From positions 1 through 30,757 of the IMG/VR virus record IMGVR_UViG_3300027861_000138: DNA of 30,757 nt; one strand, 5' to 3'. Source of the DNA: a virus. The notes beneath the pieces are model-generated. The model was not told the DNA's origin and did no database searches. It saw nothing but the letters and a program-made list of their open reading frames with translations. The position numbers and the translations under genes were made by a program. This document shows, piece by piece, positions 1,304-13,306 of this stretch (positions are counted from its first letter, which is position 1; the number at the start of each line of letters is the position of its first letter).

Positions 1304-2587
1304 TCATGCGGGGAGCCTCGCAGCTACGGCGAGGCATTGAGCGCCGCAGCGATGGTCTCTTATGCAAGGTAACAGCATCTGGAGGCGGCGAGTGGCGGCC
1401 TGGTGGTCGGTCACGTGAGGGTGTTCACGCCGCCAAACATCGACCTTGAACGCGATGTTGTTGCGGATTCCTTGCGGCATCCGATCCCACCAGAGTGCCA
1501 TCGTGGTGACGGCCTGGCCGATCGCGACGCGATCAGCCTGGGCGGCTTCGATGAGCATGACGCGATAGGCGTCGTCGAGTGTAGCCAACGCCTGGGCGAC
1601 GGTTTGCGGCTCCCTGTCGGCAACCAGAGAGCTTAGAGGGGTGTCTGACGGGGCCGGGTGCGGCGGCGGTCGGTCGGTAGCAGCGGCGAGCTGCTGGGTG
1701 GGCAGCGGTTGAGCAGCAAGCTGATGGGCGGCATGGTTGTAGCCAAGGCGATTGACCCAGCGGGCGGCGGCGACCGTAGACGGAGGGTCACCGGTTGGAC
1801 ACTGTTCGGGGTTTGTTAGCTCCTTGATCGCGCGATGGGTGTGATGACAGTTAGCGCTGCGCTTGCGTTGACGCGCGGAGGCCATGGCACGCTTGTAATC
1901 GGCGTCGCCGGCGGCGCGTTGAATCCACTTGTGCAGATCGTGCCTGGCCCAACGTGAAAACGGCTTGAACGGGTACTTGCCCCGATCGCAGTTCCAGCCG
2001 TAGTAAGCGTCTATCGTGGCGATCAGGTCAGCAGGCTTGTAACCGGCGGCGATCAAGCCGACGGCCTGGATCATCATCTTGGTCTCAATCGCCTGGCAAT
2101 TGCCAATCCGATACGCCCACCAGGCGCACACGAGCAGCGCGCCCTTGGCGTGACGTGGATCGAATGCGGGGAGCTTGCGGGGTGCGGGCGTGTAACGATC
2201 GCAAAGGGCGCCCTTACCCTCGACGTCCAACCTGTTGGCCCAGACGCGCAGCGAGCTCGCACTGCAGCGCAAGCCCTCGGCGTGAGCCTCTTGTACGATC
2301 GCGGCGGCGTGGCTGGTCGCGGAAATCGAGGGCTGATCGGCACAGAGCTTTCGCCAACGCTCAACGAGGTACAAACGCAGGCGGGCGCGGCGGTCGGTGG
2401 GCGCGTGGAACTCAGTCTGGCCGGCGACAAGCTGGCGAGAACGGTAGTCGATCACACACTCGCAGCGACCGTCAGGCGAAGCGGGAAAGCGTGCAACGCC
2501 ACGCACGCGGTCGCCAGTGCGACGCACGGTAACGTGGAGGTCGGCGACGTCGATCGTGGCGGCGTTGTCAGGATCAGCCGTCAACAC
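1304..2587 (-). CDS. Transposase-like end-binding-domain protein without DDE domain
   Basis: A 427-residue protein starting at a GTG that overlaps the RecQ stop codon by 7 nt. Residues about 67-120 resemble residues about 105-160 of the transposase encoded at 7020-9380: both have a WR-x-LC motif, then AA-x-IV, then SLR-x-W in the same order and nearly the same spacing. In MuA this part of the protein lies in the end- and enhancer-binding region. The rest (a middle segment with several Trp and Tyr and a Pro/Gln-rich linker near residues 285-325) is unfamiliar. No DDE catalytic triad follows. It is the last gene of the leftward operon. It could compete with or assist the transposase at phage ends; this is inference. 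Confidence 0.6.
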   Translation of the reverse strand: MLTADPDNAATIDVADLHVTVRRTGDRVRGVARFPASPDGRCECVIDYRSRQLVAGQTEFHAPTDRRARLRLYLVERWRKLCADQPSISATSHAAAIVQEAHAEGLRCSASSLRVWANRLDVEGKGALCDRYTPAPRKLPAFDPRHAKGALLVCAWWAYRIGNCQAIETKMMIQAVGLIAAGYKPADLIATIDAYYGWNCDRGKYPFKPFSRWARHDLHKWIQRAAGDADYKRAMASARQRKRSANCHHTHRAIKELTNPEQCPTGDPPSTVAAARWVNRLGYNHAAHQLAAQPLPTQQLAAATDRPPPHPAPSDTPLSSLVADREPQTVAQALATLDDAYRVMLIEAAQADRVAIGQAVTTMALWWDRMPQGIRNNIAFKVDVWRREHPHVTDHQAATRRLQMLLPCIRDHRCGAQCLAVAARLPA

Positions 2588-3903
2588 GCGGCCTCCAATT
2601 GTCGGGCCTCACCTTGGAGTGACATACAGTTGTCACACGCCTGGCACGTTGTGGCGATCTGCTGGCCGAAGTGGTCGCATAGAGCCCAGTGACGACACGA
2701 AGTCCACGACGGGTCGGGCGGCAAGCTACAATAGAGCTCGATCAACTCGAGGGCCTCTTCGAGCGGGCCGATATTGGTGACGTCGTCGCGCGGGCCGTCG
2801 CGATTAGACAAGAGTGACAAGCAGGTATCGTAGTCGTTCGAATGGTAGAAGATGACGCATTCGGCGGGCTGGCCGTCGCGACCGGCGCGGCCGATCTCCT
2901 GATGATACTGCTCGAGCGAGCTGGGCATTTGGGCGTGCACAACGTAACGGACGTCGGGACGGTCGATGCCCATACCGAACGCGATCGTGGCGACGACGAC
3001 GTCGACGCGGAAGTGCATGAAATCCGATTGGACCTGACGCCGCTCGCGGGGATCCAGGCCGGCGTGATACGCCAGGGCGTTAATACCGTTGAGCTGCAAA
3101 AAGCCGGCCACCGCCTCGGTCTCGAGGCGACGCATGCAGTAGATGATGCCGGCCTGGTCTTGGTGGGCACGAATGGAATCGAGCAGTTGGCGGTCAAGGT
3201 CCATGCGCTGCTCGACGCGCAGGCAAAGATTGGGCCGGTCGAAGTCGCCGACGAGAACGTCGGGCTCGCGCAAAAAGAGGCTGCCGACAATCTCGTCACG
3301 CACACGCGGCGTGGCTGTAGCAGTGTACGCCTGTATAGGTATCGCAGGAAAACACTTGCGGAGGTCGCCAAGACGGGCGTAGTCGGGTCGAAAGTCGTGA
3401 CCCCACTGGGCGATGCAATGGGCCTCGTCGATGATGAACGCAGTGACCTTACAGGCGGCCAGCAACGTCATAAATGCCGGCGTCATGACGCGCTCGGGCG
3501 AGACGTAGACCAGATCGAAGTCGCCGCACTTGAACTGTTCCTCGAGCTCCTGCTGGTCGGCGACGCTGATGCTGCTGTTGATGTGAGCCGCAGAAAAGCC
3601 GCGCCGGTTCAACTTGTCGACCTGGTCCTCCATCAATGCGATCAGCGGCGAGACAACGACCGTGGTACCAAGCAAGTGGGTTGCGGGGCCTTGGTAGCAA
3701 AGGCTCTTGCCACCGCCGGTGGGCATGACGACCAGCGAGTCGTGACCGGCGAGGGCGGAGTCGATGGCCTCACGCTGTAACGGGCGAAAGGCCGCGATGT
3801 GGAAGCGGGTGGCGATCGCGGTGAGGCGTTCATCAAGGGTGGCGCGCAGGGCGCATGATTGACCAAGGTTTTCTAACTGGGCGAGGGGTTGATCGGGGTT
3901 CAT
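2581..3903 (-). CDS. recQ: RecQ-family DNA helicase, short form
   Basis: A 440-residue superfamily 2 helicase that should unwind DNA 3' to 5' using ATP. Visible motifs are FRPLQREAI (39-47), Walker A TGGGKS (62-67), DEAH box (159-162) followed by the RecQ aromatic loop AQWGHDFRPDY, TATATP in motif III, and QEIGRAGRDG in motif VI. The zinc site is complete: C403-x16-C420-x2-C423-x2-C426. The protein ends soon after it, so the winged-helix (RQC) and HRDC domains of E. coli RecQ are missing. It overlaps the gemA-like stop by ATGA and the next gene by 7 nt, so it is an integral early gene. Remodelling of the transpososome or of replication forks during replicative transposition is a plausible role. 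Confidence 0.9.
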   Translation of the reverse strand: MNPDQPLAQLENLGQSCALRATLDERLTAIATRFHIAAFRPLQREAIDSALAGHDSLVVMPTGGGKSLCYQGPATHLLGTTVVVSPLIALMEDQVDKLNRRGFSAAHINSSISVADQQELEEQFKCGDFDLVYVSPERVMTPAFMTLLAACKVTAFIIDEAHCIAQWGHDFRPDYARLGDLRKCFPAIPIQAYTATATPRVRDEIVGSLFLREPDVLVGDFDRPNLCLRVEQRMDLDRQLLDSIRAHQDQAGIIYCMRRLETEAVAGFLQLNGINALAYHAGLDPRERRQVQSDFMHFRVDVVVATIAFGMGIDRPDVRYVVHAQMPSSLEQYHQEIGRAGRDGQPAECVIFYHSNDYDTCLSLLSNRDGPRDDVTNIGPLEEALELIELYCSLPPDPSWTSCRHWALCDHFGQQIATTCQACDNCMSLQGEARQLEAAC

Positions 3904-4382
3904 TTGGGCTTCCTCCTTGCGATCATGGTTTTCAGGACGCGGATCACTTCGCCGGCCCGTTTGGACGTGGCGAGCTGACGGATGGCGGCACGCGTCTCGT
4001 CGAGGTTGGTGACCTGGACATGGGGGACTTTGAACGTCTTAGCAAGCCAGGTGATAAACGCGGTGCTGTCGGGAAAGTAGCCCCAGCTCAAGCGCTCGAT
4101 CTGGTCGACCTGATCGGCGGTGATCATGCGCGTCGCGCCAGGCGTCCGCTTCTTGCCCGCATAAGGACCGGGCTTTTGGCCGGGTGGGTTGGCGAGACCC
4201 CGGCCGCTGAAGCGCTCGATGAAATCCGAACACTGCTTGGCGGGCAGACGGCGGAGCGAGCCGCCGACGAACTTGCGAATCTCGCTCAACTCGAGGCCCT
4301 GACGACGGCCGGCGATAACCAGCGTCTGGTGTTGACGCTTGGAGCTACTGAACGGTTTGGTGTTCAACTCGGCCATGATCAT
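3900..4382 (-). CDS. Mu gp16/GemA-like early protein (DUF1018 type)
   Basis: A 160-residue protein. The C-terminal half, starting ITADQVDQIERLSWGYF and continuing through a Trp-containing helix to EVIRVLKTM, follows the ending typical of Mu gp16/GemA proteins, where a Gln-x-x-x-Ile helix is followed by a segment ending in x-Leu-Lys-x-Met. The N-terminal half is basic and begins SSSKRQHQTLVIAGRRQGL, comparable to the family's opening helix. GemA modulates host gene expression and DNA topology in Mu; the mechanism here is unknown. It overlaps its upstream neighbour (ATGA at 4379-4382) and RecQ downstream (ATGA at 3900-3903), so translation is probably coupled. The family call is moderate because the N-terminus is divergent. 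Confidence 0.65.
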   Translation of the reverse strand: MIMAELNTKPFSSSKRQHQTLVIAGRRQGLELSEIRKFVGGSLRRLPAKQCSDFIERFSGRGLANPPGQKPGPYAGKKRTPGATRMITADQVDQIERLSWGYFPDSTAFITWLAKTFKVPHVQVTNLDETRAAIRQLATSKRAGEVIRVLKTMIARRKPK

Positions 4383-4975
4383 CCGGCTTTGATTGCCATG
4401 TCGATTGTCTTTTCGGCACGCTTCAGAGCACGTTCGAGCTTGTCGATCCGGCGCAGGGCGATGGCCAGGTCCTTGCGGAGCTGCGTGTTGTCGCGCCGCA
4501 ACGTCTGCTTAATGGATCGCAAGTTCTCGACGACAGCCAGGGCGTGCGTGAGCTTCTGATCGAGCGGCGCATCCTCGCGGGGTGCCGACGGCTCGGCGAC
4601 GTCTTTGGGCTTCGACGTGACGTCGATACGCTTGCGGCATAGGACGATCTCACCTTCCGTAACGTATTCCCGCTCCGTTACGCCGGCGGCGATAGCCTGG
4701 AAGATTCGCTCGCGGGTATCGCCCATCGCTTCGATGAGCTCGAAGCGCTCGTTGAACCACTGGGTCACATTGGCGCCTTCGCCGGTGACCATGGCCAGAA
4801 ATTCGTTGTGGTGGTTTTCGGTCATCTCCTTGACGAGGACGGCGAAGCGGTACGTATAGCGGCGCACCTCCTTGACGTTCTTGCCGAGGCGGCGGGTGTA
4901 CTTTTGGAGCTGGCCGTAGGCCGCGACGGCGTCATGCCACAAATGATCGAAGCGGGGTGGATTCTTGGTTGCCAT
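4379..4975 (-). CDS. Hypothetical early protein with C-terminal coiled coil
   Basis: A 198-residue protein. The N-terminal 100 residues are mainly predicted helix with many aromatic and charged residues. A Pro-rich linker follows near residues 122-137, and the last 60 residues form a leucine-repeat coiled coil (LTHALAVVENLRSIKQTLRR and onward) that suggests oligomerisation. Its position between transposition and GemA-like genes is where Mu-like phages often keep host-modifying proteins such as Gam, but the sequence lacks a clear Gam signature, so I do not assign it. It overlaps the zinc-knuckle gene upstream by 44 nt in another frame and GemA downstream by 4 nt. Function unknown. Confidence 0.6.
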   Translation of the reverse strand: MATKNPPRFDHLWHDAVAAYGQLQKYTRRLGKNVKEVRRYTYRFAVLVKEMTENHHNEFLAMVTGEGANVTQWFNERFELIEAMGDTRERIFQAIAAGVTEREYVTEGEIVLCRKRIDVTSKPKDVAEPSAPREDAPLDQKLTHALAVVENLRSIKQTLRRDNTQLRKDLAIALRRIDKLERALKRAEKTIDMAIKAG

Positions 4976-5642
4976 GATTTTTCTCCGTGATCTTGGTGTG
5001 TTTGTGTAACCGGCAACGAAAGCCGGTTTTGTTTCTGTGAAAGTCGTTAGGGTTGCGCCAGCCGGCGTTGCGGCCGCAGATCGTGCAGTAGACGCGACGG
5101 CCGCCTCGCCAGGAGTGTGCCAGGTGGCCTCTTACTTTGTGTTTAGGAATGACGCCGCGTAGATGCTTCCAGACGGTGCGTGCACAAGGGTTGCACAAGC
5201 CGCGCGAGTGGTGCGGGCGATGTCTGCCGCAGTTACGGCAAACAATCATGGGGCGGGCGTGCTGACGCACGTAGCAGGCGTCACACAAGCCGAGGCCGGC
5301 GTGCGGTCGTTTTCTACCGCACGTGCGGCAGGTGATTATGGGCTGGGGATAGCACATCTTACACAATCCGCGGGCGTAGTGCGGGCGCTTTCTACCGCAC
5401 GTGCGGCAGGTGATTATGCGCCGGCGATAGCACGTCTCACACAATCCGCGGGCGTGGTGCGGGCGCTTTCGCTTACACTCACGGCAGGTGATCACGGGAG
5501 AGGGGTGGCGGTGATTGTAGCAGGTCTTGCACAAGCCGTGGGCACAGTGCGGGCGTTTTTTGCCGCACGCGCGGCACGTGATCATGCGCCGCGTGCCTCG
5601 CTTTCGGCTGGTGGATTCAGGTTTGGTCTCGACGTCAATCAT
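4932..5642 (-). CDS. Tandem zinc-knuckle protein (five CxxC-x11-CxxC repeats)
   Basis: A 236-residue, strongly basic protein built from five near-identical modules. Each reads roughly I-x-C-R-x-C-G-R-K-R-P-H-x-x-R-G-L-C-x-x-C-Y. Cysteine pairs are at 23/26+38/41, 53/56+68/71, 79/82+94/97, 105/108+120/123 and 135/138+150/153, with periods of 30, 26, 26 and 30 residues. A sixth, degenerate site uses C186, C189 and probably C210. Each module should bind one zinc ion, and the Arg/Lys/His-rich knuckles suggest nucleic-acid binding. Single RGLCxxCY knuckles occur in phage HNH and related proteins; I know of no five-fold array. The start at 5642 has a weak ribosome site; ATG at 5585 is an alternative. 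The last 15 codons overlap the next gene. Confidence 0.75.
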   Translation of the reverse strand: MIDVETKPESTSRKRGTRRMITCRACGKKRPHCAHGLCKTCYNHRHPSPVITCRECKRKRPHHARGLCETCYRRRIITCRTCGRKRPHYARGLCKMCYPQPIITCRTCGRKRPHAGLGLCDACYVRQHARPMIVCRNCGRHRPHHSRGLCNPCARTVWKHLRGVIPKHKVRGHLAHSWRGGRRVYCTICGRNAGWRNPNDFHRNKTGFRCRLHKHTKITEKNHGNQESTPLRSFVA

Positions 5643-5648
5643 CGGTTG

Positions 5649-5849
5649 TTAGTTCTCACACGGTGGCACGCCGTAACGGAAAGCACGGTTGACGGTCTGA
5701 ACCTCGAACAGCAAGGCGACGCTAAGTGGCGAAAACGCGCCGGGGCGGAGCTGAAACAAGGTGAACTTGCAGCCTTCGGTAACGGATCGCCAGTCGACGC
5801 CGGGAGGCCACGGGGCACGTAAAACGTTGAGCTGTCGTTTGATGCTCAT
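5649..5849 (-). CDS. Small hypothetical early protein
   Basis: A 66-residue protein beginning MSIKRQLNVLR, with no recognised domain. The ATG at 5849 has AGGGA at good spacing. An in-frame GTG at 5873 would overlap the MuB-like stop codon (GTGA) and add eight residues; coupling of that type is common in this operon, so both starts are possible. It lies between the ATPase and the zinc-knuckle gene and was probably transcribed with them. Its short length and lack of relatives leave the function open. Confidence 0.5.
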   Translation of the reverse strand: MSIKRQLNVLRAPWPPGVDWRSVTEGCKFTLFQLRPGAFSPLSVALLFEVQTVNRAFRYGVPPCEN

Positions 5850-5869
5850 GGTGACTTCCCTAGTCAGTG

Positions 5870-7033
5870 TCACGCAGACGCCGCGACGGCGACGGTACCA
5901 CGGGACGTTATGTCCTCGCGCATTGCGGGGTCGGCCTTGAGTTCCATCTCCGCCTTGCGCAACAGGGGTTCCGAGACGGTCAGCGCATCCTGTGGTCCGA
6001 GGTCCTTGACGCTACGTTCGATGTCGACAGCCAATGCCATGATGTCGTCGCAGAGACGTAGCGAGCCGTGACCGAGCATATTGGCCGCGTCCTGGAGGTA
6101 GCCACGGGCCTCGGGCAGGAGGCGGACCTTGTCGCTTTCGAAGATCTTGCGAATGTCGGCGACGGTAAAGAGCGGCTTCTTGCCGCCCGGGACCTTGTCG
6201 AAGCCGTACACCAGGTCGGCCACGTGAATGCGGCTGTAAAGCTGGCCGTGGTCCTCGTCGCTGTCGCGACGGACGCGATCGAGCAGGTCCTTGGTGCAGA
6301 GTAAGAGGATCGGCGTCCGACACTCGTCGTAAAGGTCGCGCAAGAAATCGAGGGCCGACTCGGCGACGCGGTGGGCTTCGTCGACGATGATCAGGCGATG
6401 GCTGTCGCGCAGGACGTCGAAGATGCGTTCGTCCAGTGTGAGGCCGGCGGCCTCGTCACGCTTCTGCGATCGCCGCCGGCCGAAGAGGCGCAAGTGGGTG
6501 GCGAGCATGCGGCGTAACGACGTGAAGGACGTATTGCCCGACGAGATGCGCAGGTAAATGGCACCGGGAAACTTGTCGGCCACGACGTGGGCGACCAGGG
6601 ACTTACCGATGCCGGTGGGGCCGTGGACCAAGACCATCTGCTTACGGTTCGACGCGTTGACGGCGCAGTTCATAATGCGCTTGGCGACGCGGGTCTCGAC
6701 GTACCTGGCGAACGGCTTGGTGCGCCGCCGGCGGGCGTCGACCTCCAGCCAGTCGTTGAGGCCCCGCAGGTAGCCGTCGAGCGGTGCATGGTCGTACGTG
6801 CCGCGCAGAATGCCACTGAGGGCCTGGGCGCCAACGCTGACCTGGCGGCAAACCTCCTGTTGCGTCAAACCGTGCTTTTGAATGTAGGCGTTAACCGCGC
6901 TTGTGACTTGATCGCGCTGCTCTTTAGAGAGCGGTCCTTTGTCTGGTAGCATCCGTGCCTCCAATAGCTGGCGACTGTCGCGCTCCCTGAGACAGTCTAG
7001 GTCGGCGTTGGCGTAGTCGTCAGGCAACGTCAT
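5870..7033 (-). CDS. MuB-like AAA+ ATPase, target-activation protein
   Basis: A 387-residue protein matching the MuB family. It should bind target DNA, form ATP-dependent filaments, deliver target DNA to the transposase and stimulate it. Residues about 42-90 contain a phage-repressor-like helix-turn-helix (LTQQEVCRQVSVGAQALSGI), as in the MuB N-terminus. The ATPase core has Walker A GPTGIGKS (138-145) and Walker B LIIVDEAHR (214-222; D218, E219). MuB of Mu is about 312 residues, so this form is longer, mainly at the C-terminus. The start at 7033 has GGAG seven bases upstream and overlaps the transposase stop by 14 nt; an upstream in-frame start at 7099 would overlap the transposase more and lacks support. 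Confidence 0.85.
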   Translation of the reverse strand: MTLPDDYANADLDCLRERDSRQLLEARMLPDKGPLSKEQRDQVTSAVNAYIQKHGLTQQEVCRQVSVGAQALSGILRGTYDHAPLDGYLRGLNDWLEVDARRRRTKPFARYVETRVAKRIMNCAVNASNRKQMVLVHGPTGIGKSLVAHVVADKFPGAIYLRISSGNTSFTSLRRMLATHLRLFGRRRSQKRDEAAGLTLDERIFDVLRDSHRLIIVDEAHRVAESALDFLRDLYDECRTPILLLCTKDLLDRVRRDSDEDHGQLYSRIHVADLVYGFDKVPGGKKPLFTVADIRKIFESDKVRLLPEARGYLQDAANMLGHGSLRLCDDIMALAVDIERSVKDLGPQDALTVSEPLLRKAEMELKADPAMREDITSRGTVAVAASA

Positions 7034-9380
7034 GTTGCGACTCCGTTGGGGTAGGTGTGAGATCGTGCACGTTAACGTGGGCGTATTCGTCGAGGACATC
7101 GGTCGGTGCGGAATCTACCGTGGAAGGGGTGAGGGCGTCGACGTCGAGGTCGGCGTATTGATCAACGGGATCGGCCGGTGCGGGGTCCGCCGTCGAAGGG
7201 GTGAGGGCGTCGACGTCGAGATCGGCGTATTCGTCGGTCGGCCCTTGGTCTGCGTTGCTGCGGTGGAGAGCGTTGAAATCCAAGTCGTCCAGGTTGACGG
7301 CGTCATACTCGCTGGGTGGCGGTTCGTAGACCGTTCGATCGGGGATCGAAACGGCCTCGAAGCCGGTTCGAACGGGGACGATATTGGCGGTCGGGGCGGC
7401 GTCGTCGGTGCCGGTGGCGCGGGCTGCGGCGAGCTGGTCGCTGCGCAAAGCGGCCACCTCGCGGGCGGCTGTACGCATGCGCTTGGGCGCCTCGCGGGCC
7501 GCCTGACCCAGCAGCTTGCGACGGCTGCGGACATTGCGAACGGCCTCGCGTAACTGGTCGACGGGCGTGCCAGCCGGGATCGGCACGTTGGCCGCCAGGT
7601 GATCAATTAAAACACGCGACGTGGGGTCGGGCGTGAACGCGTAACAGGAGCTGCAATCCGCAGGGTCGAGCGTGATGAATACGTCGCGGCCCACGAGACG
7701 ACGGAGCGGCGACGAGGTCGCACCGTACGTCAACGTAGTAGGGCCGACGCGGAAGGTGACGCCGTTGGCACCGACACGATAAACACCGCGCGCTTGCATG
7801 AGAGCCAATAACTCGGTTGAGCCGGCCTTACGCAGGCTGGTCGCGGTGCGCCAGACATCGCGGGGAGTCTGACCGTCGAGGCCGCCGTGGGAGCGGCGGT
7901 GATAAAGCTCGACGTAGTCGGTGAATCGATCGCGGACCAGGTCGAGCGAAGGGACGTCGACCTGGTCGATGAACTTGAGGACGGCGATACGCTTCCACGC
8001 TTTACCGTGCTTGGCGCGCAAGGCACGCTTTTGACTGTTGGTGTAGCCGCGCCGAATCTCGGCCAGACACTCCGGGCGGCTGACGGTGTCGCGCCCGCAA
8101 TACGTGGCGAACGTCTTGTCGAACTGATCGTGAACGGTACCGAAGAACCGCTCAATTTGACCCTTAGACCAAGGGCAATAGGGGTCGGCGTAGACGACGC
8201 CGACACCGAGCTCGCCTAAAACCCCATGCCAAAAGACGGTCTGCTGATGGCGTAGAACCTGTTGCCAGTCGGGACCGAGCTGGCGGCTGCAAACGTCACG
8301 CTCGCGCTTGGTGACGCCGGTCAAAAGTTCGCTACAGAAGTCCTTGCCCTGGTCGATGTGGAAGCGGTGGGGAACGGCCCACTGGGCGAACGCCATGCGC
8401 ATGGCACTTAGGATGGCGTCCTGGTTGGGTGAGACGCCGATATGCCAGCCGACAAGGCAGCGACTGCGGCAATCCTCGATTGCCGTCAGCCAGGGGCGCA
8501 ACTGCTCGCCGCTGTGATTACACCACAAATCGAGCCGGGCGTGGTCGGCGACGTACATCCAACCGGGTTCGATCGTCGTGTAGTCGATCTCTATATGAGG
8601 TAGATGCTTGTGAGCAAAGGCAGTCTGACCCTCGCGACGCAGACAGGTCTCGTCGAGCCGGTCATTGGCACGCAGCCAGCGGGTGGTTGCGGTGTAGCTG
8701 GACGGCCAGGACCAAGCGTTACGGGCCGCCTCGCGCAACGTGGCGTCGTGGCAGGTTTGGACCGAGTGCTTGGCCTGTGAGTGATACAGGGCGTAGAAGT
8801 AGTCGATGGCGTCGGCGGAGCGGCGCGTCGAACCCGCCGGGCCGTTGTAGGCGTCGATCAGGGCCTCGATGCCGCGTATGGAACCGTCGTCGCCCGCTGT
8901 GTTATACGCGCGCCGCCAGGCCCGGAGTGAGCGGGGGGAGATGCGGAATGCGTCACCCTCGCGGCGCCTGGCTTGGTTGACGATCCGGGCGGCGAGGGAT
9001 AACTCTGTGGCACGAGGCTCGGCGGTACACAGGTCACGCCAGCGAGCGAGCCAGAAATCCTTGCGGTAGGCGCGGTCGACCAGGTGCTCGGGATAGCGGG
9101 CCAAAAGTGACTCGCGATTGCGCCGGTCGCGGTCCGCGGAACCGGGGTCGAGGTTGGGATGGACCGAACGATGGACCCACCAGACGGGCTTGCCCCGGCC
9201 GTCGCGCGGCGGGCGGAGCTGAGCCAAGCCCCTAACAGACCACTGGGTGGCGGCGCGGTGACGCATGGTGCGCAACGGCTCGCCGGTGAGCCGGGCGGCC
9301 TCGTCGAGTGGGAGCCAGGCGTCTGATTGTGGATCAAGCGTAGGGGGTCGAGGATCGGTGATAGCAGGTAATGCACTCAT
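7020..9380 (-). CDS. MuA-like DDE transposase
   Basis: A 786-residue transposase, longer than MuA (663). Residues about 20-60 form a MuA-type N-terminal winged helix (LDEAARLTGEPLRTMRHRA). Residues about 105-160 hold an end-binding segment (RWRDLC, SLRAW). The RNase H fold catalytic triad is D279 (YVADH), D343 (HIDQGKDF) and E410 (KGQIERFF), close to MuA D269, D336 and E392. It should nick phage ends and join them to target DNA. The C-terminal 90 residues contain tandem acidic repeats built on DEYADLDVDALTPS; in MuA the C-terminus contacts MuB and ClpX. The ATG at 9380 follows AAAGG. It is followed directly by the MuB-like gene, as in all Mu relatives. Confidence 0.93.
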   Translation of the reverse strand: MSALPAITDPRPPTLDPQSDAWLPLDEAARLTGEPLRTMRHRAATQWSVRGLAQLRPPRDGRGKPVWWVHRSVHPNLDPGSADRDRRNRESLLARYPEHLVDRAYRKDFWLARWRDLCTAEPRATELSLAARIVNQARRREGDAFRISPRSLRAWRRAYNTAGDDGSIRGIEALIDAYNGPAGSTRRSADAIDYFYALYHSQAKHSVQTCHDATLREAARNAWSWPSSYTATTRWLRANDRLDETCLRREGQTAFAHKHLPHIEIDYTTIEPGWMYVADHARLDLWCNHSGEQLRPWLTAIEDCRSRCLVGWHIGVSPNQDAILSAMRMAFAQWAVPHRFHIDQGKDFCSELLTGVTKRERDVCSRQLGPDWQQVLRHQQTVFWHGVLGELGVGVVYADPYCPWSKGQIERFFGTVHDQFDKTFATYCGRDTVSRPECLAEIRRGYTNSQKRALRAKHGKAWKRIAVLKFIDQVDVPSLDLVRDRFTDYVELYHRRSHGGLDGQTPRDVWRTATSLRKAGSTELLALMQARGVYRVGANGVTFRVGPTTLTYGATSSPLRRLVGRDVFITLDPADCSSCYAFTPDPTSRVLIDHLAANVPIPAGTPVDQLREAVRNVRSRRKLLGQAAREAPKRMRTAAREVAALRSDQLAAARATGTDDAAPTANIVPVRTGFEAVSIPDRTVYEPPPSEYDAVNLDDLDFNALHRSNADQGPTDEYADLDVDALTPSTADPAPADPVDQYADLDVDALTPSTVDSAPTDVLDEYAHVNVHDLTPTPTESQHDVA
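7068..7320 (-). repeat. In-frame tandem repeats in transposase 3' end
   Basis: The DNA encoding the transposase C-terminus contains two near-identical blocks of about 70 bp, around 7125-7160 and 7190-7235, plus flanking degenerate copies. They encode repeats of the form EYADLDVDALTPSTADPAP. All copies stay in frame. Expansion and contraction by recombination would change only the length of the acidic tail, not the reading frame. Confidence 0.7.
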
Positions 9381-11671: not shown

Positions 11672-12223
11672 GTGAACGTTTTTTGTCCGAACTGCGAGAA
11701 CGAGTGCTCGGAAGACGCGGCGGCATGTCCGAAGTGCGGGCATCCGCTGAAAGCGTCGGTGGTGCACGACGTTGAGCGATGGGCGCGCAAGCGTGGGCGA
11801 GGCTGGTGGGTTCGGTTTTCGTTGGCGTTGACGTTCGCAGTGGCCTCGGTTGCGGTGATGGTCGGAGTTTACAAGCACGAGAAGGCGTCGATCGTACGGT
11901 GCACGGAAGCGATGAGGGCATCGGGTGACGCGCATCGCAGGGCATTGGACCGGCAATGGGAGCGGGAGGAGTTGATCTTGAGGCTTGCAAATGCGCGAGG
12001 GTCGGGGTTTGAGGTGCTGAGCGCTGAGGAGCTGAGGGTGCTGGCGTGGCGGGCAGGTCGGATTGCCCGGGTCTATGGGATGGACGTGATTTCGGTATGT
12101 GAAGTATTAGCGGCGGTGGCAGGCGTGGGGGCAAGCGCTAAGGAGGAGTTGGACTTGTGCCTACTAGATTCGATGGGGGCTCTGGGTTCTTTTGACGTGA
12201 ATGTGATTCGGGTCGAAAGGTAG
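11672..12223 (+). CDS. Zinc-ribbon protein with one membrane segment
   Basis: A 183-residue protein with GTG start preceded at about ten bases by GGGGA. Residues 5-22 form a zinc ribbon, CPNC and CPKC, of the kind found at the N-termini of many bacterial membrane proteins. Residues about 48-67 (WVRFSLALTFAVASVAVMVGV) are one membrane span. The remaining 110 residues are helical and would face the other side of the membrane. It is not clearly a phage structural or replication protein; placed after the repressor candidate and before a rightward terminator, it may be expressed in the lysogen and change the host surface. That role is inferred from position alone. Confidence 0.6.
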   Translation: MNVFCPNCENECSEDAAACPKCGHPLKASVVHDVERWARKRGRGWWVRFSLALTFAVASVAVMVGVYKHEKASIVRCTEAMRASGDAHRRALDRQWEREELILRLANARGSGFEVLSAEELRVLAWRAGRIARVYGMDVISVCEVLAAVAGVGASAKEELDLCLLDSMGALGSFDVNVIRVER

Positions 12224-12457
12224 GGAAGATTTTTTTGATTTTGGGGTTGACAGGGCGTAGACGAGGCCGTAGGAGGGGTATCTGACAATCTGAAGGGTGA
12301 GTTACAGCGCCCTGAAACCGGAAAACAAATCGGGTCGATCGAAGATGATCGGCTGAAAATCTGAGCTGAAAACGGCGGAGACGCGGAGACGCGGAGACGG
12401 GTCCATGGGCTGACGCCCGTGGGTCCGAGCGCGAGAACGCGTAACCGATCGAGAAGG

Positions 12458-12508
12458 CCAGGTGCGATTGCCTCGTGATGGCGGGACAAACGCACCTGGT
12501 CTTTTTTT
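12458..12508 (+). terminator. Rightward intrinsic terminator
   Basis: CCAGGTGCG (12458-12466) pairs perfectly with CGCACCTGG (12491-12499), with a 24-nt loop, and is followed by TC and seven Ts. This would end transcription from the repressor candidate and zinc-ribbon membrane genes before the late operon. The minus strand has no T-run after the stem, so it should act only rightward. Confidence 0.7.
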
Positions 12509-12536
12509 GCGCCACCTGGCGGTGGGGCTACCTGAC

Positions 12537-12573
12537 GAATGGCGAATGGCGAATGGCAAATAGCGAATAGCGA
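12537..12573 (+). repeat. GAATGGC/GAATAGC heptamer array
   Basis: Five consecutive 7-bp units: three GAATGGC, then AAATAGC and GAATAGC. A related cluster of GCGAAT-N heptads, partly interrupted by a CCACC/GGTGG hairpin, lies at about 13190-13280, just before the first late gene. Confidence 0.8.
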
Positions 12574-12732
12574 CCACCCGGTGGAACGGCGGCCACGATG
12601 GCCGCATGGGCAGGGATGCACATGGCAAGGACGCCAGACAAAACGAGACCTCTTTCCCCTCCGATGAGAGGCCGGCCGGTTCGCCGTGTCCGGCCTCTTG
12701 TTGCGCACAGGGACGCGGATCCATTCCTGGCA

Positions 12733-12996
12733 GCCGGGGTCGGGGTGCGCTTGACACGCCTCGGCCCCGGGGCCCTTGCACGCAGGCTTGTCCGCTCCCT
12801 CACGGTCGCGGCTCTGATCAAGGCCGGGGCAACGAGATTCTTTCTCCATGCGACGGCCGGGGTCGAGGTGCGACCGCCGTGCCTCGGCCCCGGGAGCTTT
12901 GCACGCAGGCTTGTCCGCTCCCTCACGGTCGCGGCTCTGATCAAGGCGGGGAGGCTTGTCCGCTCCCTCACGGTCGCGGCTCTGATCAAGGCGGGG
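12733..12996 (+). repeat. 123-bp direct repeat with a 45-bp third partial copy
   Basis: Two copies of a block of about 95 bp lie 123 bp apart (starting at 12733 and 12856). A third partial copy starts 45 bp after the second core (12952 against 12907). The most conserved core is TTGTCCGCTCCCTCACGGTC followed by GCGGCTCTGATCAAGGC. One plus-strand frame reads LPHGRGSDQG in all copies. I judge it non-coding: no start site, no homologous domain, and all frames remain open only because spacings are multiples of three. Confidence 0.75.
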
Positions 12997-13095
12997 GTGA
13001 GGGCGATATCCTTCCTCCACTTACGGGCCGGGTTAGGCGCGCGCCAGGCGTGCGCCGAGCCCGGACCAGGCGGCGGAGGTACCTGGCGAAGGCGG

Positions 13096-13123
13096 AAGGA
13101 TGAGGGATGAAGGATGAAGGATG
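13096..13123 (+). repeat. AAGGATG heptamer array
   Basis: Four consecutive 7-bp units of AAGGATG or AGGGATG. Unlike the arrays at 16922, 22961 and 27294, this one does not run into the start codon of a gene; the next gene starts about 180 bp downstream. Confidence 0.8.
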
Positions 13124-13306
13124 AAGGGCAGCGGGCCGGCGGCGAGCCACGGATGGCAGGGGCATGGACGCCGCCGCCGGCCCTTAATTGAAAATTGCGA
13201 ATGGCGAATTGCGAATAGCGACCACCTGGCGGTGGGGCTGCCTCGGGAATTGCGAATAGCGAATTGCGAATAGCGAATGGGAATGTCAATCACAAAAGGA
13301 GACAGG

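Follow-up and report, generated by a model that had tools for sequence, protein, structure and literature searches.

The early operon and its array gene

The window, which is the whole stretch of 30,757 bases analysed here, is an IMG/VR virus record from a virus of Phycisphaerae-type bacteria, and all the early-operon genes described below lie on its minus strand. A MuA-like transposase (7020..9380; phrog_310, 7.4e-69) is followed by a MuB-like transposition ATPase (5870..7099; phrog_296, 1.2e-35) and a 74-aa gene (5649..5873) that has a partial match in the related operon L150. The stop codon of the latter is 6 nt before the ATG of the array gene (4932..5642), which in turn overlaps the gene for p198 (4379..4975). 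Further along are a GemA-like gene (3900..4382), 48% identical to an early-operon homologue in the related prophage L118 and with a match to PF06252 (E 0.0012) that is below the cut-off, a RecQ-type helicase (2581..3903; DEAD 3.8e-26, Helicase_C 1.3e-24), and p427, a 427-aa gene (1304-2587) without a Pfam or PHROG family. The neighbouring MuA, MuB, GemA-like, RecQ and p427 genes are all kept in L118. The initial annotation had assigned the array gene to an early transposition operon, and its position between the MuB and GemA-like genes agrees with this.

The array gene is a 236-aa ORF with an ATG start, encoding five C4, treble-clef-like knuckles, a linker and a sixth finger of another kind (type B). 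As first described, the product is strongly basic, with a pI of 10.8, a calculated charge of about +48, and 56 Lys+Arg against 9 Asp+Glu; it contains 24 Cys. The reading frame and its five modules are real, the frame aligning to its orthologue in L118 with an E of 1.4e-11. An antisense ORF of 219 aa on the plus strand (5163-5822) was considered as a gene but dropped, since it has no counterpart in L118 and its GC by codon position is the mirror image of that of the array frame.

Modules of the form CxxC-x11-CxxC, presumably zinc-binding, start at residues 23, 53, 79, 105 and 135, i.e. with periods of 30, 26, 26 and 30. All on the minus strand, they are module 1 (5520..5576; aa 23-41, CRACGKKRPHCAHGLCKTC), module 2 (5430..5486; aa 53-71, CRECKRKRPHHARGLCETC), module 3 (5352..5408; aa 79-97, CRTCGRKRPHYARGLCKMC), module 4 (5274..5330; aa 105-123, CRTCGRKRPHAGLGLCDAC) and module 5 (5184..5240; aa 135-153, CRNCGRHRPHHSRGLCNPC). 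The array is far beyond chance: the bare spacing pattern gives 7 overlapping matches, and none of 20,000 sequences shuffled from the same residues had more than 2. Scored separately, each module reaches 46-51 bits against a profile that the same five helped to build. The five-fold arrangement originally reported therefore stands, but the term zinc knuckle does not apply in its retroviral sense, as the modules are C4 (CX2CX11CX2C) rather than CCHC (CX2CX4HX4C). Nor do they form a C2H2 array (CX2-4C-X12-HX3-5H), since they end in CxxC and not HX3-5H, and Pfam zf-C2H2 has no match in the protein.

The DNA of modules 3 and 4 had been called nearly identical, which is true of the first half (37/39 nt) but not of the second (21/39). 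Module 3 is a mosaic, combining the first half of module 4 with the second half of module 2; modules 2 and 3 are identical at 33 of 39 nt in the second half and at 29 of 39 in the first. These half-wise identities are the mark of a tandem duplication whose 78-bp unit began in the middle of one module and ended in the middle of another. The trace of this last module duplication is a 78-bp tandem repeat (5281..5470, minus strand) of 2.4 copies with 87% matches, so that the recent tandem duplication proposed at the outset is borne out.

The type-B finger (4992..5132, minus strand; aa 171-217) was absent from the initial annotation. It differs from the other five in having CxxC-x20-CxxH inside a GG..C..C..AGWR..P..NK.GF.C..H motif, and it is the part kept in all seven related loci (see below). 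A profile built in part from the related proteins scores it at 79.5 bits in the window and at 58-81 bits in those proteins. Type B matched no family of known function, and a search of phages with this finger gave no matches.

Relatives and predicted fold of the module

Searches with the whole array protein found no relatives among viral contigs or phage records and no match among PDB sequences; among plasmids, only Streptomyces arrays were found (E 0.02). The single module gives a different picture. In viral contigs the pattern RPxxARGLCxxCY occurs in 46 stretches, representing 43 distinct ORFs with 1-3 GLCxxC units each, about half of which look nuclease-like by a rough count of motifs. Pfam recognises Endonuclease_7 in two module-bearing phage proteins (L033, 2.6e-25; L044, 6.1e-26), HNH_3 in a third (L018, 8e-17), and LAGLIDADG_3 with HTH in a protein from a bacterial genome (L109, 7e-11); no model for the module itself was among the matches. 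Seen on proteins of these three kinds and widespread on phage nucleases, the module is a finger that DNA-acting proteins commonly carry, and is not new. The initial view that it is of a type not described before is therefore not supported. In PHROGs, too, the array protein itself hits an 'HNH endonuclease' family, via profile residues 25-47 of 112 only, i.e. the finger segment.

The array protein has in common with these Endonuclease VII, HNH and LAGLIDADG proteins the accessory module, with its CxxC-x11/12-CxxC spacing, RP, and ARGLCxxCY end (the finger parts of phrog_20467 and phrog_5351). Unlike these DNA-acting proteins, which carry one to three copies, it has five, together with an extra type-B finger and a coupled p198 gene, and Pfam recognised no catalytic nuclease domain in it or in five relatives. 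The closest array among viral contigs is a phage protein (L006/L049) with three modules and likewise no recognised nuclease domain, but with a different C-terminal tail and no type B seen. A 762-aa Streptomyces plasmid protein (WP_223781390.1) has about nine CxxCG...CxxC modules and is encoded beside a tyrosine recombinase gene. It resembles the array protein in having short C4 modules in a long tandem array and in its location beside DNA-recombination genes, but is of another subtype (the type-A profile is clear in one module only), with a different C-terminal region and no p198 seen. A two-module DNA pattern with the spacing fixed at 26 found nothing in viral contigs, and the module alignment had no confirmed match in genome contigs. 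In scans of the class Phycisphaerae and of its phylum, modules were rare and mostly single-copy; one match (L107/L118) proved to be the orthologue.

In a single-sequence AlphaFold2 model of the array protein, each module is predicted as strand-turn-strand, most with a helix at the second CxxC. The pLDDT per ten-residue block is 57-84, and mostly 74-84 in modules 1-3. Whole-model structure searches mostly returned C2H2 arrays, alike in overall shape; the superposition was poor and these matches were rejected. A separate model of the module (mean pLDDT 69) has as structural neighbours mainly uS14/eS29 chains (6 of the 7 chains with Z >=2, with weak scores of up to 2.4), plus other treble clefs such as those of LIM, RecO and FYVE, none significant alone. 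A profile search aligned uS14 across the whole module (E about 2), and hhalign of the module profile against 27 uS14 sequences gave a weak 40% probability; the uS14 profile score was reached by 9 of 200 shuffles in which the cysteines were fixed. The module is predicted to fold as a minimal treble clef similar to that of ribosomal protein uS14. Its possible likeness to uS14 (type Z) lies in a C4 spacing within one residue (CxxC-x12-CxxC), GLC/GIC before the second pair, and the predicted hairpin-helix fold. The array differs from uS14 in its tandem modules and in that the C-terminal GEIPGVRKASW, present in uS14 of related genomes, is absent after every module. A common fold is plausible, while homology is unproven. 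A published survey places both uS14 and the HNH/EndoVII nucleases among the ancient treble clefs (PMC4999995).

The finger-p198 cassette in seven loci

The array gene and the p198 gene overlap by 44 nt (4932..4975, minus strand), and the p198 ATG has a GGAG ribosome site 7-8 nt upstream. The 198-aa p198 protein has a conserved N-terminal part and a C-terminal coiled coil. It matches no family of known function, its C-terminal half matching coiled coils only; p198 found nothing in phages, its alignment nothing in viral contigs, and the L118 array protein had no matches in phages. Related loci came from a MuB search of genome contigs, which pointed to Phycisphaerales, then from module scans, and then from MuB and p198 profiles; the latter gave further loci in Phycisphaerae, while the phylum sample returned only the genome of L118 again. 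Including the window there are seven (L118, L156, L183, L184, L185 and L186), L183 and L184 being from one genome.

In all seven, a type-B finger protein is directly upstream of p198, either overlapping it or fused in frame. The overlap is 29 nt in L118, at least some 50 nt in L186, and about 8 nt in L183 and L184, as read from the junction sequence. In L156 and L185 the finger and p198 coding regions form one open frame in which the internal ATG and ribosome site are kept, so a single fused protein is not proven there. The remainder of the first protein varies. In place of the five knuckles of the window, L118 has 2 modules (and one type-B finger), L156 has 2 fingers (and three type-B fingers), L183 and L184 have 15-residue basic repeats, L185 has similar repeats with one finger, and L186 has an HTH (HTH_23, above the Pfam cut-off) plus two fingers. 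Judged from these sequences, the N-terminal part is exchangeable and type B is kept.

Orthologues of the array protein thus lie in early operons of related Mu-like Phycisphaerae prophages and in one prophage that is not Mu-like, L186. The latter has Prim-Pol, an intein-bearing helicase and a ParB-N methylase, as well as GpA-like large terminase and portal genes named by reading the sequence. The cassette is therefore not tied to transposition as such, and a link of that kind was dropped. Two related operons, L150 (a 4-kb contig cut short) and L151, gave no array; in L151 other small genes lie between RecQ and p427. No description of the cassette was found in the libraries searched or in the openly licensed literature, and it appears to be undescribed in those libraries. 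The five-fold array without a recognised nuclease domain is a variant, and shows that copies of a finger known as an accessory of nucleases can make up an array that stands alone. The more interesting part is the type-B finger with p198, a so far unnamed pair common to transposable and non-transposable Phycisphaerae phages.

Possible roles of the array protein

The reading we favour, at about even odds (ca. 0.5), is a two-gene early cassette in which the array protein would do the binding of nucleic acid, multivalently and together with p198. It is probably not an enzyme of a new kind but a DNA gripper with several hands. Five treble-clef knuckles and a type-B finger would act as a hand, strongly basic and multivalent, that holds DNA (RNA being less likely), and the overlapping gene would supply a coiled-coil partner from the same message at the same time. 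The knuckles would contribute affinity via repetition, not through a fixed long recognition sequence, and because affinity would come from repetition, their number and kind could change. Type B and p198 would form the constant core, linking contact with DNA to the assembly of p198 at phage or host DNA during early replication. Counted in favour of such a gripper are the presence of the module on DNA-acting proteins, the HTH_23 of L186, the charge, the treble-clef-like model, the coupling to p198 in 7/7 loci, the C-terminal coiled coil, and the exchangeable N-terminus with type B kept. Counted against it are the weak uS14 matches, the fact that zinc arrays can also mediate protein contacts, the lack of a known-function match for type B and p198, and the small set of seven loci, of which L183 and L184 share a genome. 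The initial annotation had suggested either a multivalent nucleic-acid binder or a host-inhibition protein; nucleic-acid binding is by inference the likeliest role, while host inhibition is not directly supported.

The occurrence of the module on many phage nucleases, and a PHROG match confined to profile residues 25-47, would also fit a remnant of HNH/Endonuclease VII type, in which the nuclease was lost but its targeting fingers stayed and multiplied, with little function of their own or as an accessory to another nuclease. The 15-residue basic repeats of L183 point the same way, matching phrog_17714 and, weakly, an endonuclease PHROG. This is unlikely: the gene is kept intact within an operon, its overlapping partner is conserved in seven loci, as is the type-B finger, and Pfam recognises no nuclease domain in the window protein or five relatives. 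Binding of rRNA or mRNA by uS14-like knuckles, with an effect on translation, seems improbable: uS14/eS29 chains are the commonest PDB neighbours and the uS14 profile spans the whole module, but that score is not significant alone, is attained by some cysteine-fixed shuffles, and the same module sits on DNA nucleases.

A host-takeover or counter-defence pair, binding host nucleic acid or protein, redirecting host functions and changing fast in an arms race, would suit the early operon position and the presence of the pair in both Mu-like and non-Mu prophages. L183 and L184 are similar element fragments in the same genome, whose first (finger) proteins differ by 60 aa of 15-residue basic repeats. 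Between them, the finger-p198 pair has a pN/pS of 0.94, compared with 0.25 for the nearby p427 (Fisher p 5e-5), and a silent divergence of 0.05 compared with 0.29, which hints at recent exchange plus fast change. This is, however, one pair of copies on metagenome contigs, with 47 substitutions in the pair, and such a ratio could also result from recombination or from relaxed constraint; nor is there similarity to a known inhibitor, and we consider host takeover unlikely. Equally unlikely is a two-gene phage cassette in which the fixed type-B finger and its coiled-coil partner would display an interchangeable array of variable copy number (knuckles, basic 15-mers, HTH), and in which tandem duplication would adjust this array as part of an arms race with host nucleic-acid machinery or defences. 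With its variable N-terminus, the protein lends itself to testing directly how binding and function depend on the length and type of the array.

Some further features were noted. The RecQ-type helicase gene within the Mu-like early operon is kept in L118, L150, L151 and L156. Along one stretch, p427 resembles the N-terminal region of MuA-like transposases from related prophages (35% over 110 aa, E 6e-4; also L153, L162 and L168), suggesting a shared DNA-binding domain. In L151 an ASCH-domain gene (L151:8284-8679) lies between RecQ and p427, the site of the finger-p198 cassette in L118 and L156, and in the Prim-Pol prophage an intein, matched below cut-off by Hint_2 and Intein_splicing, interrupts a helicase gene (L186:11935-14478). 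The MuB matches in L121 and L123 cross in-frame stops (2 TAG and 2 TGA, respectively), which suggests decayed prophages. Between the early and late genes of the window, the region 12073-13300 is repetitive; in translation, its ORFs contain recurring peptides, among them DQSRDREGADKP and HPSSF.
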